Part shown: in pieces, positions 3 to 7,392 of the stretch
Layout of the letters: each line of letters opens with the position of its first letter
Numbering within the stretch: position 1 is the first letter of the stretch
Source: Methanobacteriota archaeon
Lineage (GTDB): Archaea; Thermoplasmatota; Poseidoniia; Poseidoniales; Thalassarchaeaceae
Direction: 5' to 3'
Length of the DNA stretch: 35,818 bases
NCBI GenBank assembly: GCA_002722595.1
Contig: PBMO01000005.1
Span: forward strand, 1 to 35,818
Translations under genes and position numbers: made by a program
Notes under the pieces: generated by a model
Told to the model about the DNA's origin: nothing
Databases searched by the model: none
Seen by the model: only the letters and a program-made list of their open reading frames with translations

Positions 3-3000
3 GGTGAATCTCCATTGTTCAACGGATACGAACAGTTGCCATACTATCAAAATACAGATGGATACCAGAACCAATTGGCATTTGATGCCTCAGGTAACAT
101 GTACTATGCCAACCGATACTCAACCTCGGTCGGGGCCCAATCCAATACACAATTCAAGACGGGTTCAAACACCCATTGGGTGAACGGATATGCTGTAGAT
201 TCTGACGATGTTTTCGTTGCCAAGCGCGGCTTGGATGGAACTTGGGATTGGGTGGTTTCTGCACAACTTTGCAGCGGTCAAGTTAGAGAAATGATGAGTG
301 ATTCACAGGGCAATTCATACGTTCTGGTGAATTTCTTTGGCCTTGCATACAGTTCAAACTGTGACGTTGAAATTAAGGCCATGAATGTGGAAGAATACCT
401 CAGCACGGTCAATTATTATGATTCCATGGTCATGAAATTGGATTCAAGTGGGAATTTGCTTTGGGTGACTTCTTCATCTGGAACCCGCACTACCGGCACC
501 CCAGTGCTTCTCTCGACCGACATGGTCGTAGATTCCAACGGTAACGTTACGATTTCGGGTAGAGCAAATATTCATTATTCTGCAAACAACATCACCTTCG
601 CCGGCATGGATTTAGATTTGGGTACGAGCTGTCTCAGCACCCATCGTGCATTTGTTGTTCGGTTGGATGGCAATGGAAATGGCGCTTGGGCTCAGGGTGC
701 GCACTCTTACAGTAGCTGTGGCGCAGAGAATAGCAACGTCAAGGTCGTATCGCACCCTGACGGTTCAGCCACAATCGCCGGTTCGACAAATTATGGATTG
801 GATTTCGATGGGAATCAAATCTCACACAATTCGAACAATTATCGGTATCTTGCCCATGTGGATGCTTCAGGAAATTGGCAATGGGCGAAGAATATCACTC
901 AATCGTCCCATTCGATGGGTACAAACACCGACAATGCAATCTTGGAAACCTTGAGTGATGGAAGCATGCTGTTTGCGACAGCCCAGTTTAACGGCTACTG
1001 CGGCAGTGGTTGTACACTGAACATGGATGGTACCAGTCTAGACGTCGAGAATCAGTATTACGTCGCAGCCATGCGATTGGGTACGGATGGTACTCAACAT
1101 TGGGCTCAAATGTTGGGCGATTCTTGGGGTTCCCATACAACGGGTGGGAGCATGTATTCTACAGTGGATGGCGATGGAATTGTCAACATCCTCATGGATA
1201 CGGAAACCAGCCCGACCTGGAGAATGTTTGGTCTTTCAGACGATGGTGATTTGGTATACTACACTGGATCATACTCTGGTTCTACGGGTGGTTCAGTCTC
1301 TGACATGGGGACCGATCACTTTGGCCAACCGTATTTCATTGCAAATCTGAGGAACACTAACTGGGGCAAGAACACGCTATTGAATACTTACAGTAGCAAT
1401 GGACAATACGCTCCTTCCTCGATGTATTTGTATCGAATGTTCGGTTCTGTGGACCATGCTGCGAATCACACCCTGATTGGAAATAATTCGAATGTCTACT
1501 TGCCTGCCATGGGTGCGGGTTGCAGTGGTTATGCCACGATGTCATGTGGAAGCTACGCCAGTTGGACCTTGTATCCAAGCCCACCATCTGGATTGAGTTT
1601 AGATTCAAACACAGGACGTCTCGTTGGAACACCCAATCAAATGGTTGCGAATGCAACCTACATGCTGAATGCGACCATCACTTCACCGGTGACTCGAACC
1701 CTTTCGGTCAACATCACCTTTGGAATTGCACCCGAGGCTCCAACTGTCACTTGGGATGACAACATGACTCAGACGATCACCCGTGGAGATGCGATTGTCA
1801 CAGTGACTCCGACGATTGCCACGCCGCAATATGTGGCATCGTTTGTAGTTGAACCTGCACTGCCTGCAGGTGTGACCTTGGACCCTGTCACGGGTGTTCT
1901 TTCGGGTACGCCAACAGGGAACATGACGACTGCGGTCTTTACCCTGAAGTCTTGCAACAGTTGGGGGCTTTGCAACGAAGGCTCAGAATTCACGCTAACT
2001 GTAGTGGAACCACTTCCTGTAATTTCGTATTCGGATACAGAATATGAATTCCCCAAGGAGGCTCCGATCACTCCATTGGTGCCAACCAACTTGGGTGGTA
2101 TGGTTGAGACTTGGGAGGTTTCACCAGATTTGCCCTATGGATTGACCTTGGGTGATGGAGGAATCATCTCAGGAATTCCCGCTGGGAATGCTCCTGCGAC
2201 TAACTATACCATTTGGGCTAACAACTCGGGCGGTAGCACCAGCGTAACCATCTCTATAGCCATCAATGGGACTGGAATGTATGTATTCTATCCATACGAT
2301 GAACAACGATTGGCGATTGATTATCCAATCATGACCGTCTACCCGTCCTCACTTGGCGCCGTGCCGATTACTTGGTCGATTACTCCTGATTTGCCAGACG
2401 GTCTAGAGTTTGGAACTGCGAACGGAACCATTTGGGGGACTCCCACGACATTGACGGACTTGGAAACTTACACGGTCTTCGCTCAAGGATTTGATTTGGA
2501 TGCCAATTCATCAACTACCCTGACCATTGCCATCCTGCCCGATTTGGATGGCGACGGGATTCCGGATGAATCAGACCCTGATTCAGATGGTGACGGTTGG
2601 TATGATGATTACGAGGCAGAGTGTGAGACCAATGCAAGTGATCCAAACAGCCGTCCATTCGATTCTGATGGTGACGGTATTTGCGACGGAATTGATGAAG
2701 ATGATGGTTCGATGATTCTGATGGTTTATCCCTCTGCAGTGCTTGAGCTGTCGTTAAACGTAACCATGACTGACTTCGTACCTTATGCTGCAGGTGGAGA
2801 CATCGACACTTGGGAGATTAGCCCGGCTTTGCCATTGGGCTTGAACTTCGATGGTGTTAGCCCTGCACGTTCGACATCAGATACTGGTATAATTTCAGGA
2901 ATTCCAACTGAACTATTGGATCCAACATTGTATACAGTATGGGCCAATAATTCAGATCACAGTGCAACGTTTACTATCATGGTTTCAGTATTGCCTGATA

Positions 3001-4907
3001 ACGATCTAGATGGATTGCCTGATGTCTATGATGATGATGATGACAACGATGGTTGGTCCGATGAAATGGAAGATCTCTGTTCGAATGATGGGATGGATGA
3101 TTCAAGTACACCGCAAGATACTGATGGTGATGAATTGTGCAACTCCGTCGATGATGATGATGATGATGATGGCTTCACTGATGAAGAAGAAGCCACCTGT
3201 ATCTCTGACCCCGAAGATGCGAATGATACTCCATCGGATCTTGATGGAAATGGAGTTTGTGATGCTCTCGAATCTGACACCGATGGTGATGGTTGGGCAG
3301 ATGGCTTAGAGAATGCCTGTGGTACAGATCCGATGGATTTGTCAAGTGTACCTGATGATGCCGATGCCGATCAATCCTGCGACGTCTTAGATGATGATGA
3401 TGACAACGATGGTTCACCTGATATCCAGGATGCATACCCATTCGATTCTGGTGCACACACTGACACTGATGGAGATGGTGATCCTGATGAATTACTGTAT
3501 TCACCATACTTTGGAAACCTTACCGAAGACATGGATGATGATGGCGATGGTTGGAACGATACCGTTGAGATTGATTGTGGTACTGAACCACTCAACGCCA
3601 CCAGTATCCCAGTGGATGCCAATGGAAACGGAATCTGTGATGTGAACGAAGAGTCTGTAATTGAAGGCGAGCCGGATGAGGATACAACTGACGAATCGAA
3701 TTCAGGTGTCAACCAATATCTCAGTTGGACAGCATGCTGTATTCTCCTGCTACTTCTTCTATTGCTACTCCTTGTACTACTTCGAGGTAGAGATGTGTCG
3801 GTCTTGACACTGATTCAAAGATTCAGAGATGCAGAACCTGAACACACAACGTCGAAGCCGGTGTTCATGTTCGGTGTCGGCACACGTGAAGATCCATTCA
3901 TGCTAGAACCAGTTGAAGGCCTGGCTTGCGGGTCATCGGTAGAAAGCAAGGAACTCATCACCATCGACAATCTAGATGCAGGTAGCATCATTCGATTCAA
4001 CGACATCAATGAGAGTGAAAATGGTGGCAGATTTAGAATGGATTCGATTGAGGTCCACGACGATGATGGAGATGGCAATGGTTCCATCCAATTCCGTTTG
4101 AAGTTCGATGACAGCATTGGGTATGGGACAGATGGAGGTGTCTATTATGATGGACTGATTAAATGCGGTGTATCTTCTGTATACTTCCTGTGGAATGTCG
4201 AAACTTGGGAAGATCCAAAGAATCGGAAGACCCGCGAAAATTACGAAGCCGAAGAACGCAAGGTTGAGGAGGATAGAATCCGTGAACAGGCCAAGGCTGA
4301 GGCACTTGCTCAGGTGGCCCAAGAGGCTGAGAAAGAGAAGAAGATGCGTGCAGAGGTTGAAGAAAAGCTCCGTGCAGAGGCAGAAGCCAAGGTTCGAATT
4401 GAAGCGGAAGCCAAAGCCAAGGCTGAGGCTGAGCAGAAAGCTAAGGCTGAGGCTGAGAAGAAAGCTAAGGAGATTGCCAAAGAGCGAGAGGCTGCAGAAC
4501 GTCAAGCCAGCAAAGAAGCCGCAGCATTAGCGCAGCGCGATGCAGAAAAACGCCTTGCAGAGATGGAAGAAAAGATGGCGGCCAAGATGGCAGAAATGGA
4601 GGAAAAGATGGAAGGTCTGTCCAAGAAGGAAGCCGAACTTGCTCGAGTAGCAGCCAAGGCAGAATTCATCGATTTCAAGACTCTTGGTGTTGCCAAAGAA
4701 TCTGATAAGGATGACTTGCAGAAAATCAAAGGAATTGGACCATTTATCGAAGAGAAACTCAATGCACTGGGCATCTACACCTTTGCACAAGTATCCAAGA
4801 TGACTCCAGAAATCGAAGAGCAAGTCAACGTTGCAATCGAGTTCTTTAGAGGCAGGATACGACGAGACAAGTGGGCTCAGCAAGCCAAGGAATTGAACTC
4901 AAACTAG
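3..4907 (+). CDS. Giant membrane-anchored surface protein: beta-propeller, Ig-like, Ca-binding repeats, cytoplasmic coiled coil and HhH (5' partial)
   Basis: The frame is open to the window edge, so the N-terminus is missing. Residues are counted from the TTG at 15. Residues 1-510 carry repeats of the SBBP/beta-propeller kind, each with a VxxLDxxGNxxW-like strand. Residues 515-840 hold four putative Ig (He_PIG) units with LPxGLxLDxxTGxxxGTP cores, and a fifth lies near 900-995. Acidic thrombospondin-3-like repeats (DxDGDGxxD) occupy 842-900 and 996-1216 and probably bind calcium. A leucine-rich membrane segment spans about 1236-1259. Beyond it come an unrecognised domain (1270-1405), an Ala/Glu/Lys coiled coil (1406-1549) and a C-terminal helix-hairpin-helix-like domain with the core IKGIGPFIEEKLNALGI. 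The expected topology is a large ectodomain with a cytoplasmic tail. The role is probably adhesion or envelope structure; this is inference. No protease motif is visible. Confidence 0.85.
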   Translation, partial: GESPLFNGYEQLPYYQNTDGYQNQLAFDASGNMYYANRYSTSVGAQSNTQFKTGSNTHWVNGYAVDSDDVFVAKRGLDGTWDWVVSAQLCSGQVREMMSDSQGNSYVLVNFFGLAYSSNCDVEIKAMNVEEYLSTVNYYDSMVMKLDSSGNLLWVTSSSGTRTTGTPVLLSTDMVVDSNGNVTISGRANIHYSANNITFAGMDLDLGTSCLSTHRAFVVRLDGNGNGAWAQGAHSYSSCGAENSNVKVVSHPDGSATIAGSTNYGLDFDGNQISHNSNNYRYLAHVDASGNWQWAKNITQSSHSMGTNTDNAILETLSDGSMLFATAQFNGYCGSGCTLNMDGTSLDVENQYYVAAMRLGTDGTQHWAQMLGDSWGSHTTGGSMYSTVDGDGIVNILMDTETSPTWRMFGLSDDGDLVYYTGSYSGSTGGSVSDMGTDHFGQPYFIANLRNTNWGKNTLLNTYSSNGQYAPSSMYLYRMFGSVDHAANHTLIGNNSNVYLPAMGAGCSGYATMSCGSYASWTLYPSPPSGLSLDSNTGRLVGTPNQMVANATYMLNATITSPVTRTLSVNITFGIAPEAPTVTWDDNMTQTITRGDAIVTVTPTIATPQYVASFVVEPALPAGVTLDPVTGVLSGTPTGNMTTAVFTLKSCNSWGLCNEGSEFTLTVVEPLPVISYSDTEYEFPKEAPITPLVPTNLGGMVETWEVSPDLPYGLTLGDGGIISGIPAGNAPATNYTIWANNSGGSTSVTISIAINGTGMYVFYPYDEQRLAIDYPIMTVYPSSLGAVPITWSITPDLPDGLEFGTANGTIWGTPTTLTDLETYTVFAQGFDLDANSSTTLTIAILPDLDGDGIPDESDPDSDGDGWYDDYEAECETNASDPNSRPFDSDGDGICDGIDEDDGSMILMVYPSAVLELSLNVTMTDFVPYAAGGDIDTWEISPALPLGLNFDGVSPARSTSDTGIISGIPTELLDPTLYTVWANNSDHSATFTIMVSVLPDNDLDGLPDVYDDDDDNDGWSDEMEDLCSNDGMDDSSTPQDTDGDELCNSVDDDDDDDGFTDEEEATCISDPEDANDTPSDLDGNGVCDALESDTDGDGWADGLENACGTDPMDLSSVPDDADADQSCDVLDDDDDNDGSPDIQDAYPFDSGAHTDTDGDGDPDELLYSPYFGNLTEDMDDDGDGWNDTVEIDCGTEPLNATSIPVDANGNGICDVNEESVIEGEPDEDTTDESNSGVNQYLSWTACCILLLLLLLLLLVLLRGRDVSVLTLIQRFRDAEPEHTTSKPVFMFGVGTREDPFMLEPVEGLACGSSVESKELITIDNLDAGSIIRFNDINESENGGRFRMDSIEVHDDDGDGNGSIQFRLKFDDSIGYGTDGGVYYDGLIKCGVSSVYFLWNVETWEDPKNRKTRENYEAEERKVEEDRIREQAKAEALAQVAQEAEKEKKMRAEVEEKLRAEAEAKVRIEAEAKAKAEAEQKAKAEAEKKAKEIAKEREAAERQASKEAAALAQRDAEKRLAEMEEKMAAKMAEMEEKMEGLSKKEAELARVAAKAEFIDFKTLGVAKESDKDDLQKIKGIGPFIEEKLNALGIYTFAQVSKMTPEIEEQVNVAIEFFRGRIRRDKWAQQAKELNSN
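3030..3415 (+). repeat. GAT-rich repeats encoding poly-Asp calcium-binding loops
   Basis: Runs of GAT codons occur near 3030-3045, 3150-3171 and 3391-3404 inside the thrombospondin-3-like region of the surface protein gene. A 24-base word (ATGATGATGATGAC followed by AACGATGGTT) occurs twice, about 360 bases apart. The repeats are in frame and encode DDDDDNDG loops, so they look like coding repeats shaped by duplication or slippage. Confidence 0.7.
4419..4466 (+). repeat. 24-bp tandem duplication in the coiled-coil coding region
   Basis: Two adjacent 24-base copies, 4419-4442 and 4443-4466, differ at one base. Each encodes the eight-residue unit KAEAE(Q/K)KA. The copies keep frame and extend the Ala/Glu/Lys helix, which suggests that the coiled coil grew by short tandem duplication. 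Confidence 0.75.
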
Positions 4908-4920: not shown

Positions 4921-6237
4921 ATGGTGACGGTAAGTGAATTATTTGCGGATGCAGTGGATATATTGGACAGTTTAGCATGGTATTACCGGTTCTTAATCTC
5001 GGTTGGATTGAGCGTATTGGCAGTCTATTCTCTGAAGCGGTTCGTGATGCGAAGAGTCGCCGAGTTGGTCAATGAAACAAAGACTGGGTGGGACAACGAT
5101 CTATACATCGCACTGGAATCTAAAGTAGTAATTTTCTTTGGCATTATTTGTTTTAATTTATCACTAATTTGGGTAAGTCCAGATTTGTTAGAATCGATAT
5201 TTCCCTTTGTTAATTCGCTTTACATATTGCTATTGACAATGATGCTAGCAACTACTGTGAAGGTGGCAACTCCTCCTCTAATGGCTTGGTTGAATAGTAA
5301 CAAGAAAGGAGGCGTCTCAGTCACCGGCGGGAATCATTTTGTCAGTATTATAGTTAGAATGATTATTTGGTTAATTGGTATCAATGCGATTCTGAAAGAA
5401 TTGAGTTTTGATATTACTGGAATACTTGCTTCCTTTGCTTTGTTCTCGTTAATCATCGGCCTTTCCCTTCAGCACACGATTGGTAACATCCTCAACTCAT
5501 TCATGCTCGCCATGGATAGTCCATTTGATGTAGGAGATCGAATTATTGTCGATGGCACTGAAGGTAGAGTTGTATCAACCGGTATACTTTCAACAAAACT
5601 TCTTTCTCATTCCGAGGAATTGGTAGTCATCCCGAACAATACTTTGGTACAGGCCAAGATTGTCAATATGGCTCGTGGTGGAGGGGATGGTGAACCACGT
5701 AGAATCAATCTACTGATTGATGTTGCTGCGGCTTATGGGGAGGAACCTCCGCATGTCAAGCAGGTTTTGATGGATATAGCAAAGTCATGTCCCTATACAG
5801 TCGACGATCCAATGCCACGAGTTCTCGTAGTAGGGCTTGGCGATTATTCTGTAGACTTCAGGATATATGCATGGATTGACAATTACGCAGATCAATGGCC
5901 AGCACGAGACTGGATTCTTCAGAACGTATTCGATCGCTTCGCTGATGAGGGCATAGAGATTCCATTCCCAACTTCGATTGAGTTGAACGCCACTCCAGGA
6001 GCTACTACTGATGCAGGACTGCGTCGTAAGAAAGCACGACAAAAGGCTGCACGAGTACAGATGTCAAAGGATGAGAAGTTCTACCGTGAGGAGCGTGACT
6101 CATTGAAGGCATACGTCGAAGATTTAGAGAAGCAACTGAAAGATGCAACCCTAAGTTCGAGGGAAAAAGACCGATTGAGGGAAGAGATTTCCAACATGAG
6201 CAGAACACTTGATCGCTTTGATGGAGTCGACGATTGA
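4921..6237 (+). CDS. MscS-family mechanosensitive ion channel with coiled-coil tail
   Basis: This is a 438-residue small-conductance mechanosensitive channel homologue. Several N-terminal membrane helices (about 18-40, 70-118 and 140-190) lead into the MscS pore and beta domain, which has the family signature near GNILNSFMLAMDSPFDVGDR and IPNNTL. An alpha/beta vestibule domain follows to about residue 355. The last 75 or so residues are charged and predicted coiled coil, which is more than the minimal E. coli MscS has. It probably releases osmolytes on membrane tension. The start is the ATG at 4921. An AGGAGG Shine-Dalgarno at 4906-4911 overlaps the stop codon of the surface protein gene, so the two are very likely co-transcribed and translationally coupled. 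Confidence 0.93.
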   Translation: MVTVSELFADAVDILDSLAWYYRFLISVGLSVLAVYSLKRFVMRRVAELVNETKTGWDNDLYIALESKVVIFFGIICFNLSLIWVSPDLLESIFPFVNSLYILLLTMMLATTVKVATPPLMAWLNSNKKGGVSVTGGNHFVSIIVRMIIWLIGINAILKELSFDITGILASFALFSLIIGLSLQHTIGNILNSFMLAMDSPFDVGDRIIVDGTEGRVVSTGILSTKLLSHSEELVVIPNNTLVQAKIVNMARGGGDGEPRRINLLIDVAAAYGEEPPHVKQVLMDIAKSCPYTVDDPMPRVLVVGLGDYSVDFRIYAWIDNYADQWPARDWILQNVFDRFADEGIEIPFPTSIELNATPGATTDAGLRRKKARQKAARVQMSKDEKFYREERDSLKAYVEDLEKQLKDATLSSREKDRLREEISNMSRTLDRFDGVDD

Positions 6238-6240
6238 AAT

Positions 6241-7392
6241 CTAAATCAGACTTCCAATAATTGCACTACCTGCAATCCATGCACCAGCAGTTGAACCCAA
6301 ATTGGCCAGCGCAGTCACAAGTAAGACTCTACCAACTTTGTTTTTCCAGAAAAGTGACAATTGATCAAGTTTGAGAAATTCTTGCAATTCCTTAGTCGAT
6401 GGGGCTGCGACTTTCAACTGTACAAGGCCAGCAAACCAACCAGCAGCTAACATCGGATTGAGTGAAGTAATAGGGCTGGCAATCGCAGCAGTTAGGATAG
6501 CAAAAGGGTGACCTCTAGCTAGTAGCGCCCCTAGGGCTGCCAGGGCAGCATTGAGGGTCAACCAAGTTACTGCTGCATCCTTGAGTGACGCTACATCACC
6601 TTGCGATGCAATCCAAGCAAAAAGTCCGACCATCAAGACAGGTATACCCCACTTGACAATTTTCCATGCAGGGTTCGGAGGAGCAATGTGTTTCAAATCC
6701 TGCATGCGCTGTTCATCAGCAACATCGCCGCAACGCAATCGCTCAGCAACTCCTTCTAGGTGCCCTGCTCCAATTACTGCAAGCACCTTTCCTTCCGTGC
6801 GTAATTTCTGAATATTCGCAGCAAGATATTCATCTCTCTCGTCTATCAAAACCTCTCCAGCACCTGGTGCAACATCTCTCAATTCGTCCATCATTTGGGT
6901 GATTAAGTCTGTATTTTCCAAGAGTTCATCGACTTTTACATCATCATCTTCATCCTCTGCAAATAATATTACAGATATGATTCGCCATTTCTCTCGGAAA
7001 CTCATTTTTCTCCAAGCACGACGAAGTGTGACTTGGATATCTCTATCGACTAGTGCCACATTTTTCTCTGCATCTTTTGCCGCATCTATTGCAGCAAGCA
7101 AGTCAGTGCCAGGTTTCTCGCCTTCAGCCAAACCAAGTTTGCGTTGCTCTAGAGCCATCATTGATTGGAAAAGGACCAAAGGAGCCTTACCTTCCCTCAA
7201 TACCTTTCCTAGAGTCTCGTTATCGAAGTGCTCTGGTTGAGTCAAAGCTCCTAAACGGCTTTTACATAATTCGACAGCGACAATATCAGGTTCATATTCC
7301 TCAACTTCTCTCTTAGCAGCATCTGCACTCACTCTAGAAATGTGGGCTGTACCTAATAGTCGAAGATTTTCATCTATGTCTACGACCGTCAT
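6241..7392 (-). CDS. TraB/PrgY-family membrane protein
   Basis: This 383-residue protein belongs to the TraB family (pheromone shutdown/TraB-type), related to the TIKI/GumN metalloprotease-like fold. The N-terminal signature LLGTAHIS is followed by an EVEEYEPDIVAVELC-like stretch, in which the Glu is typical of the family. A second conserved block, VLAVIGAGHLEGV, lies near residue 210. The C-terminal third holds several hydrophobic helices (about 245-380), so the N-terminal domain is membrane-tethered. Its biochemical activity is unsettled in archaea. The gene starts inside the end of folP: an ATGA overlap joins its ATG at 7392 to the folP TGA, indicating translational coupling. Its stop lies three bases from the convergent MscS stop. 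Confidence 0.88.
   Translation of the reverse strand: MTVVDIDENLRLLGTAHISRVSADAAKREVEEYEPDIVAVELCKSRLGALTQPEHFDNETLGKVLREGKAPLVLFQSMMALEQRKLGLAEGEKPGTDLLAAIDAAKDAEKNVALVDRDIQVTLRRAWRKMSFREKWRIISVILFAEDEDDDVKVDELLENTDLITQMMDELRDVAPGAGEVLIDERDEYLAANIQKLRTEGKVLAVIGAGHLEGVAERLRCGDVADEQRMQDLKHIAPPNPAWKIVKWGIPVLMVGLFAWIASQGDVASLKDAAVTWLTLNAALAALGALLARGHPFAILTAAIASPITSLNPMLAAGWFAGLVQLKVAAPSTKELQEFLKLDQLSLFWKNKVGRVLLVTALANLGSTAGAWIAGSAIIGSLI

Follow-up and report, generated by a model that had tools for sequence, protein, structure and literature searches.

PhaH of Caulobacter crescentus (NCBIfam NF045508) coats PHB granules and carries a C-terminal helix-hairpin-helix (HhH) domain. A 2025 review attributes to this domain DNA binding without sequence preference and states that the granules are positioned along the nucleoid (PMC13052382). 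An HhH domain is also present in the tail of Haloferax PhaC (PMC12028471). In Alphaproteobacteria, NuoE of complex I and the ribosomal proteins bL21 and uS2 carry the same domain in C-terminal extensions. Homologous domains, termed H3TH, occur in a 41-kDa subunit of complex I (9wqv) and in protein O of the RC-LH1 complex of Dinoroseobacter shibae (8yy9). The function of the latter domain was described as obscure, with only the N-terminal membrane part of protein O traced (PMC12079452).

Here we describe a giant surface protein of a marine archaeon that ends in a homologous domain. Like PhaH, it is a cell-structure-bound protein with a C-terminal HhH domain, but PhaH has no known membrane helix, ectodomain, Ig-like collar or long charged helix. 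Protein O shares with it a membrane anchor, a flexible part and a C-terminal H3TH domain; in contrast, protein O and the 41-kDa subunit are small, belong to photosynthetic or respiratory complexes and lack an ectodomain. No surface-protein carrier was seen here among the alphaproteobacterial-type NuoE, bL21 and uS2 extensions. The H3TH domain is already known and named. Its position below a giant surface protein, the beta collar, archaeal NuoI, NuoJ and eL21 as carriers and the pairing with mscS were not found in the open-licence literature searched, nor was any HhH domain in Marine Group II in such papers; the architecture, carrier set and gene pairing look undescribed.

Architecture of the Surface Protein

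The window, that is, the whole stretch of DNA analyzed, covers the opening 35.8 kb of contig C5, which belongs to a MAG of 1.64 Mb (76% complete) from Ca. Thalassarchaeaceae, Poseidoniales (Marine Group II). Among named genomes, Candidatus Thalassarchaeum / Thalassarchaeaceae and Euryarchaeota MAGs stand nearest to it. The surface protein gene begins upstream of the contig, and the 1634 residues encoded are therefore the C-terminal portion of the protein (Table 1). The visible part has no signal peptide, the 5' end lying beyond the contig. Orthologous frames extend up to 3000-3500 residues and are likewise cut, and relatives overall measure 3000-6000 aa; some full-length relatives begin with signal peptides (L042, L046 and L047; judged by eye).

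Table 1. Features of the surface protein gene and its downstream neighbor (window coordinates)
Feature	Position	Strand	Evidence or remark
Surface protein gene	3..4907	+	1634 codons plus stop; 5' end missing at contig start
Best He_PIG Ig-like domain of four	2013..2264	+	Residues 671-754; Pfam PF05345, E 4.5e-23
TSP3-type Asp-rich calcium-binding repeat	3276..3338	+	Residues 1092-1112; Pfam PF18884
Single membrane helix	3717..3782	+	Residues ~1239-1260; acidic before, RGR after
Juxtamembrane cytoplasmic Ig-like (HYDIN/PapD-like) beta domain	3834..4205	+	Alignment, survey, AF2, Foldseek
Long A/E/K/R helical arm	4215..4664	+	AF2 helices; composition, salt-bridge count
Conserved linker FIDFKTLGVA...	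4665..4706	+	Alignments; L053, L026, L077, L082
C-terminal H3TH / helix-hairpin-helix domain (KDDLQKIKGIGPF...GRIRRDKWAQQAKEL)	4707..4895	+	Profile matches, alignment, AF2
mscS-family mechanosensitive channel	4921..6237	+	Pfam MS_channel_2nd/3rd; AGGAGG ribosome site

The initial annotation had assigned propeller, Ig-like and calcium-binding repeats to the ectodomain. Four He_PIG Ig domains were indeed identified by Pfam, and the calcium-binding repeat was recovered just under the curated cut-off (24.1 bits against 25, E 3.1e-5). A propeller was not recovered for the in-window part, since Pfam gave no match in residues 1-500; FVAKxxxDGxWxWxxS-type repeats are visible in the protein, and RCC1 propellers are present in the full-length relatives L042 and L046. 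The ectodomain is strongly acidic, with 27 K/R against 194 D/E, and contains 22 sequons.

One membrane helix was found, as had been proposed. Because an acidic flank precedes this helix and an RGR flank follows it, the C-terminus is predicted to lie inside. The cytoplasmic position of the tail, also part of the original proposal, is well supported by this positive-inside pattern, by the signal peptides of the relatives and by the presence of the same tail on cytoplasmic carriers (NuoI, eL21 and soluble proteins), which together rule out a tail outside the cell.

Between the membrane helix and the helical arm lies a beta domain of ~120 residues that had previously been overlooked. It gave no match in a Pfam search; in Foldseek, PapD-like domains of HYDIN and domains of the ciliary central pair came up as similar folds (E 9e-4 to 1e-2, prob about 1). 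The domain was observed in 66 of the 146 Poseidoniales genomes surveyed (at least 80% complete; the window's own genome was added to this set), and comparison of the two lists showed that 62 of the 66 also have H3TH. Surface proteins with the beta domain but without H3TH either finish directly after it in a short, often lysine-rich end (L122, L124, L125 and L128) or run off the contig.

The arm that follows is 146-154 residues long and consists to 77% of Ala, Glu, Lys and Arg. It contains 16 K-to-E pairs at i+4, against 9.2 +/- 2.3 in shuffles, and 27 E-to-K pairs at i+3/i+4, against 18.5 +/- 3.3, and the occupancy of a/d positions by hydrophobic residues other than alanine drops to 0.17 mid-arm. 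The excess of i/i+4 K-E pairs and the near-empty hydrophobic a/d positions give the middle of the arm the look of a single alpha-helix rather than of a classic coiled coil. By these sequence features, the probability of a rigid single helix is no lower than that of a coiled coil, and the last ~45 residues, a third of the arm, appear more coiled-coil-like. The earlier description as a coiled coil of ~145 residues is probably partly wrong. When fully extended, an arm of 146 residues would measure about 22 nm. A comparable arrangement is that of TolA, in which a membrane anchor, a very long Ala/Lys/Glu helix and a globular far-end domain form a compartment-bridging arm; in contrast to the window protein, TolA spans the periplasm and has a different end domain. 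The match to the TolA profile reflects compositional likeness (31 bits against a curated cut-off of 59).

In alignments, the FIDFKTLGVA... linker stands ahead of H3TH on nearly all carriers. Many paralogues (among them L002, L010, L024 and L036) have a ~50-residue beta insert between the IDF-TLG linker and H3TH, with the motif ELEVGDxSxFxxSGxAxIxDxxGxxxIxWTGKxxNxLTGVxGxxRxFA; the window protein is without it. Compared with L032, L034 and the window protein, the orthologue L035 / L041 has a chimaeric tail, in which the insert and the first half of H3TH are paralogue-like and the second half is orthologue-like, a product of either recombination or an assembly artefact. Another type of surface protein occurs in the window's own genus (L016, L018 and L020); its membrane helix is followed by a short coil and H3TH, and it ends in the conserved acidic sequence FxDVDWE.

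The Tail Is an H3TH Domain

AF2 was run on 13 relatives. Within the fragment of the inside part that was modeled, the prediction comprises the membrane helix (3-30), the beta domain (50-170), two long helices (173-245 and 253-323) and, at the extreme C-terminus, a compact helical domain with a separate helix-hairpin-helix fold. The pLDDT of this domain is mostly 82-88 in context; alone, it was predicted as four helices with pLDDT 84.4 and pTM 0.74. A surface protein with a membrane helix, a helical arm and a C-terminal HhH tail is confirmed. The possibility that the HhH segment is only part of the coil, raised in the initial annotation as an outcome that would speak against it, is ruled out by this confident separate domain.

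A chance look-alike is ruled out by matches far beyond chance in NCBIfam and the PDB. The C-terminal extensions of alphaproteobacterial NuoE, uS2, bL21 and PhaH were matched with E 3.3e-19 to 5.8e-10; in the PhasinPhaH model (NF045508), tail residues 3-68 align to positions 168-232 of 234 (E 5.8e-10). The PDB entries 9wqv_a and 8yy9_O were matched with E 4e-12 by single sequence and about 1e-17 by profile. Homology with the NuoE, bL21, uS2, PhaH and protein O tails spans the whole ~65-residue domain, including its GRxxRDxWxxQA half, and by these matches the window tail belongs to their H3TH (COG3743-like) family. Proteins of the COG3743 type bear the label 'predicted 5' DNA nuclease, H3TH'. 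The Pfam families suggested at the outset scored below their curated cut-offs: HHH_5 (PF14520) at 19.1 bits against 27, and DUF4332 (PF14229) at 13.2 against 23.2, so that membership of DUF4332 was rejected. The paralogue L116 exceeds the HHH_5 cut-off with 30.7 bits.

The homology to PhaH suggests a DNA-binding head at the end of the arm, and the remote sequence and fold neighbors Dpo4/Pol IV, Pol beta, RecG and RadA, whose HhH domains belong to DNA-handling proteins, point the same way. A separate globular domain that ends a rigid helix would suit such a function. The domain is slightly acidic, with a mean net charge of -2.1 (n=145), which would speak against DNA binding; the HhH domain of RadA from this genome is likewise acidic (-5), so charge was dropped as proof for or against. 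A second difficulty lies in the soluble coil proteins described below, where the second hairpin Gly is often Asp (KGLDEFSQKKLN), a change that should weaken phosphate contacts.

SAM protein-interaction domains are also among the nearest folds, and it is possible, if somewhat doubtful, that H3TH is instead a SAM-like module for protein docking or self-association. Surface proteins, complex I and soluble coil proteins would then be drawn together by their tails, which meet directly or via a common adaptor, to form clusters in the membrane or a cytoskeleton built of coils, much as the SAM domains at the C-termini of Eph receptors act below their ectodomains. Like the window protein, an Eph receptor runs from an ectodomain through one membrane helix to a small helical domain at its cytoplasmic end; the window protein, unlike it, has no kinase. 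Docking is favored by the Eph SAM domains among the structural neighbors, by residues of the GRxxRDxWxxQA type that scarcely vary, if at all, from carrier to carrier or between kingdoms, and by paralogues that lose the second hairpin Gly and keep the rest. Against it, the fold similarity is weak and non-significant (best Foldseek SAM match E 0.99, prob 0.28), no SAM family was matched by the tail in Pfam, and the sole function reported for a close homologue, that of PhaH, is DNA binding (PMC13052382).

Carriers and Distribution

The H3TH tail was found in 82 of the 146 Poseidoniales genomes, in one to six copies each, and was absent from 64. Outside Poseidoniales, a 295-genome sample of the phylum showed it in one sister family of the class, while one further family has a diverged version; no match was obtained among 50,697 phage records. 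As the survey proposed in the initial annotation brought out, most tail carriers in Poseidoniales are surface proteins. The others are NuoI (with two 4Fe-4S motifs), NuoJ (the C-terminal half of NuoJ within a nuoD-H-I-J-J'-K-L operon), ribosomal eL21 (PF01157, E 4e-31), a COX1-like protein, a HEAT-repeat protein and soluble coil proteins. The NuoI, NuoJ and eL21 carriers (L026, L009, L077 and L082) parallel NuoE, bL21 and uS2 of Alphaproteobacteria. In S. meliloti, H3TH is on a protein encoded between nuoF and nuoG, and a membrane protein of R. lusitanum has two H3TH copies. The domain tree, which has 72 columns only and many unresolved forks, splits the Poseidoniales tails from bacterial plasmid tails (95/95). 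It requires 32 carrier changes, whereas shuffling gives 57.8 on average, which indicates that carriers are mixed, but not random.

On NuoI, the tail is present in some genomes only: the open frames measure 427-479 aa with it and mostly 317-380 aa without it, and 96% identical orthologues lack it. In one genus, five of seven genomes have it on eL21, which is then 225-244 aa long instead of 123-124 aa. The tail is thus dispensable for these machines and quickly gained or lost, among orthologues that are 93-96% identical. Assembly chimaeras are unlikely for the NuoI, NuoJ and eL21 carriers, which come from several independent MAGs, and possible for L116/L136, where the contig ends inside a repeat. 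Such recent gain and loss, together with the 64 genomes without a tail, could be accounted for by a general sorting, turnover or assembly tag without tethering, or by a nearly neutral cassette that spreads passively. We consider this very improbable, as the mean column identity of 72% among 26 diverse members (H3TH is the best conserved part of the surface protein in the alignment) and the invariant residues argue for selection, and it would have to be coincidence that Alphaproteobacteria attached the domain to complex I and ribosomal proteins in parallel.

Several genomes have a single H3TH gene. Since tails are readily gained and lost and only one carrier is present in many genomes, the partner is expected to be either universal (DNA or RNA) or the tail itself, a step that is weakened by the incompleteness of the MAGs. 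For docking, with the same caveat on MAGs, such genomes leave homotypic contacts or a universal partner only. More favorable to docking are the many tails with two or three H3TH copies and the soluble coil proteins with the same head in two genera of the window's own family (g4 and g10; L052, L086, L087 and L111). These proteins have 513-918 residues, mostly coil, and are candidate cytoskeletal elements; one soluble coil protein (578 aa) has a UPF0227 hydrolase domain in front. Attachment to DNA, for its part, is consistent with the variety of carriers and the patchy gain and loss, as expected of a tag whose target exists in every cell.

The COX1-like protein (L104, L116 and L135) is a multi-membrane protein with EF-hands, its likeness to COX1 being judged by eye only, and in one case its H3TH cassette adjoins a SAP domain. 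SAP domains are usually DNA-binding, and this neighbor would fit a nucleoid target. The 83% identical orthologue L135 has a SAP tail without H3TH, so the pair is not obligatory. Replacement of H3TH by SAP is ruled out by comparison of L104 (L134) with L135, in which the cassette is seen to be inserted ahead of the existing SAP tail.

Pairing with mscS

The gene downstream of the surface protein starts 13 bases past its stop codon and encodes an MscS-family channel, with the MscS beta domain at 61.1 bits (cut-off 20.2) and the C-terminal domain at 51.4 bits (cut-off 21). An H3TH gene followed by mscS on the same strand was observed in 25 genomes from 7 genera and both families, with gaps of mostly 17-172 bases, against about 0.03 pairs expected by chance; pairs were matched by hand from two search tables. 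This pairing is the strongest functional hint beyond homology. A TraB/PrgY/gumN-family gene lies at 6241-7392 of the window on the minus strand, and the block of surface protein, mscS and TraB genes is kept in three relatives.

The tail might mainly serve tension sensing, as the cytoplasmic arm of a unit formed with the MscS channel encoded next to it, in which the surface protein is anchored outside, the Ig-like collar or H3TH touches the cytoplasmic cage of MscS, and pulling gates or localizes the channel. The conserved gene order agrees with this, as do two g13 genomes in which the H3TH member of the pair is a small soluble protein. On the other hand, many carriers (NuoI, eL21 and surface proteins such as L044 and L046) have no adjacent mscS, many mscS copies are located away from H3TH genes, and neighborhood is not contact; we regard this as unlikely.

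A Possible Link between Envelope and Nucleoid

In the initial annotation, chromatin, a cytoskeleton and a partner were each named as possible targets of a link from the envelope through the tail. Chromatin is favored among these because the homologous PhaH tail is reported to bind DNA, and we infer the same for the window tail. Our tentative reading, held at a little less than even confidence, is that the arm, anchored in the membrane, ties the envelope to the nucleoid in the manner of PhaH; it rests on the full-length match to the PhaH, NuoE, uS2 and bL21 tails and on the other observations given above. The large ectodomain would face the sea water. Below the membrane helix and the cytoplasmic Ig-like collar, a stiff charged helix of about 20 nm would carry the H3TH domain into the cytoplasm, where it would hold the envelope on the nucleoid as the PhaH tail reportedly holds PHB granules. 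On other carriers, the same domain would hold complex I, the COX1-like protein or ribosomes on the nucleoid. The tight gene pairing with mscS, conserved in 25 genomes, suggests a role of this tether in envelope tension, which the link between envelope and nucleoid may share in sensing or bearing.

A broader generalization, that H3TH is a general module for attachment to the nucleoid (or to a hub), put independently on complex I and the ribosome in Alphaproteobacteria and Poseidoniales and, in addition, on MscS-paired surface proteins, appears rather unlikely at present. If true, envelope, energy and translation machines would be physically tied to the chromosome. The known, functionally obscure H3TH extensions of bacterial NuoE, bL21 and protein O gain a common hypothesis. 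A modular tail shared, across two domains of life, by surface proteins, subunits of complex I and a ribosomal protein offers a testable case of a physical link among envelope, energy machinery, ribosomes and nucleoid, with the conserved mscS partner as a handle on mechanosensing in uncultured marine archaea.
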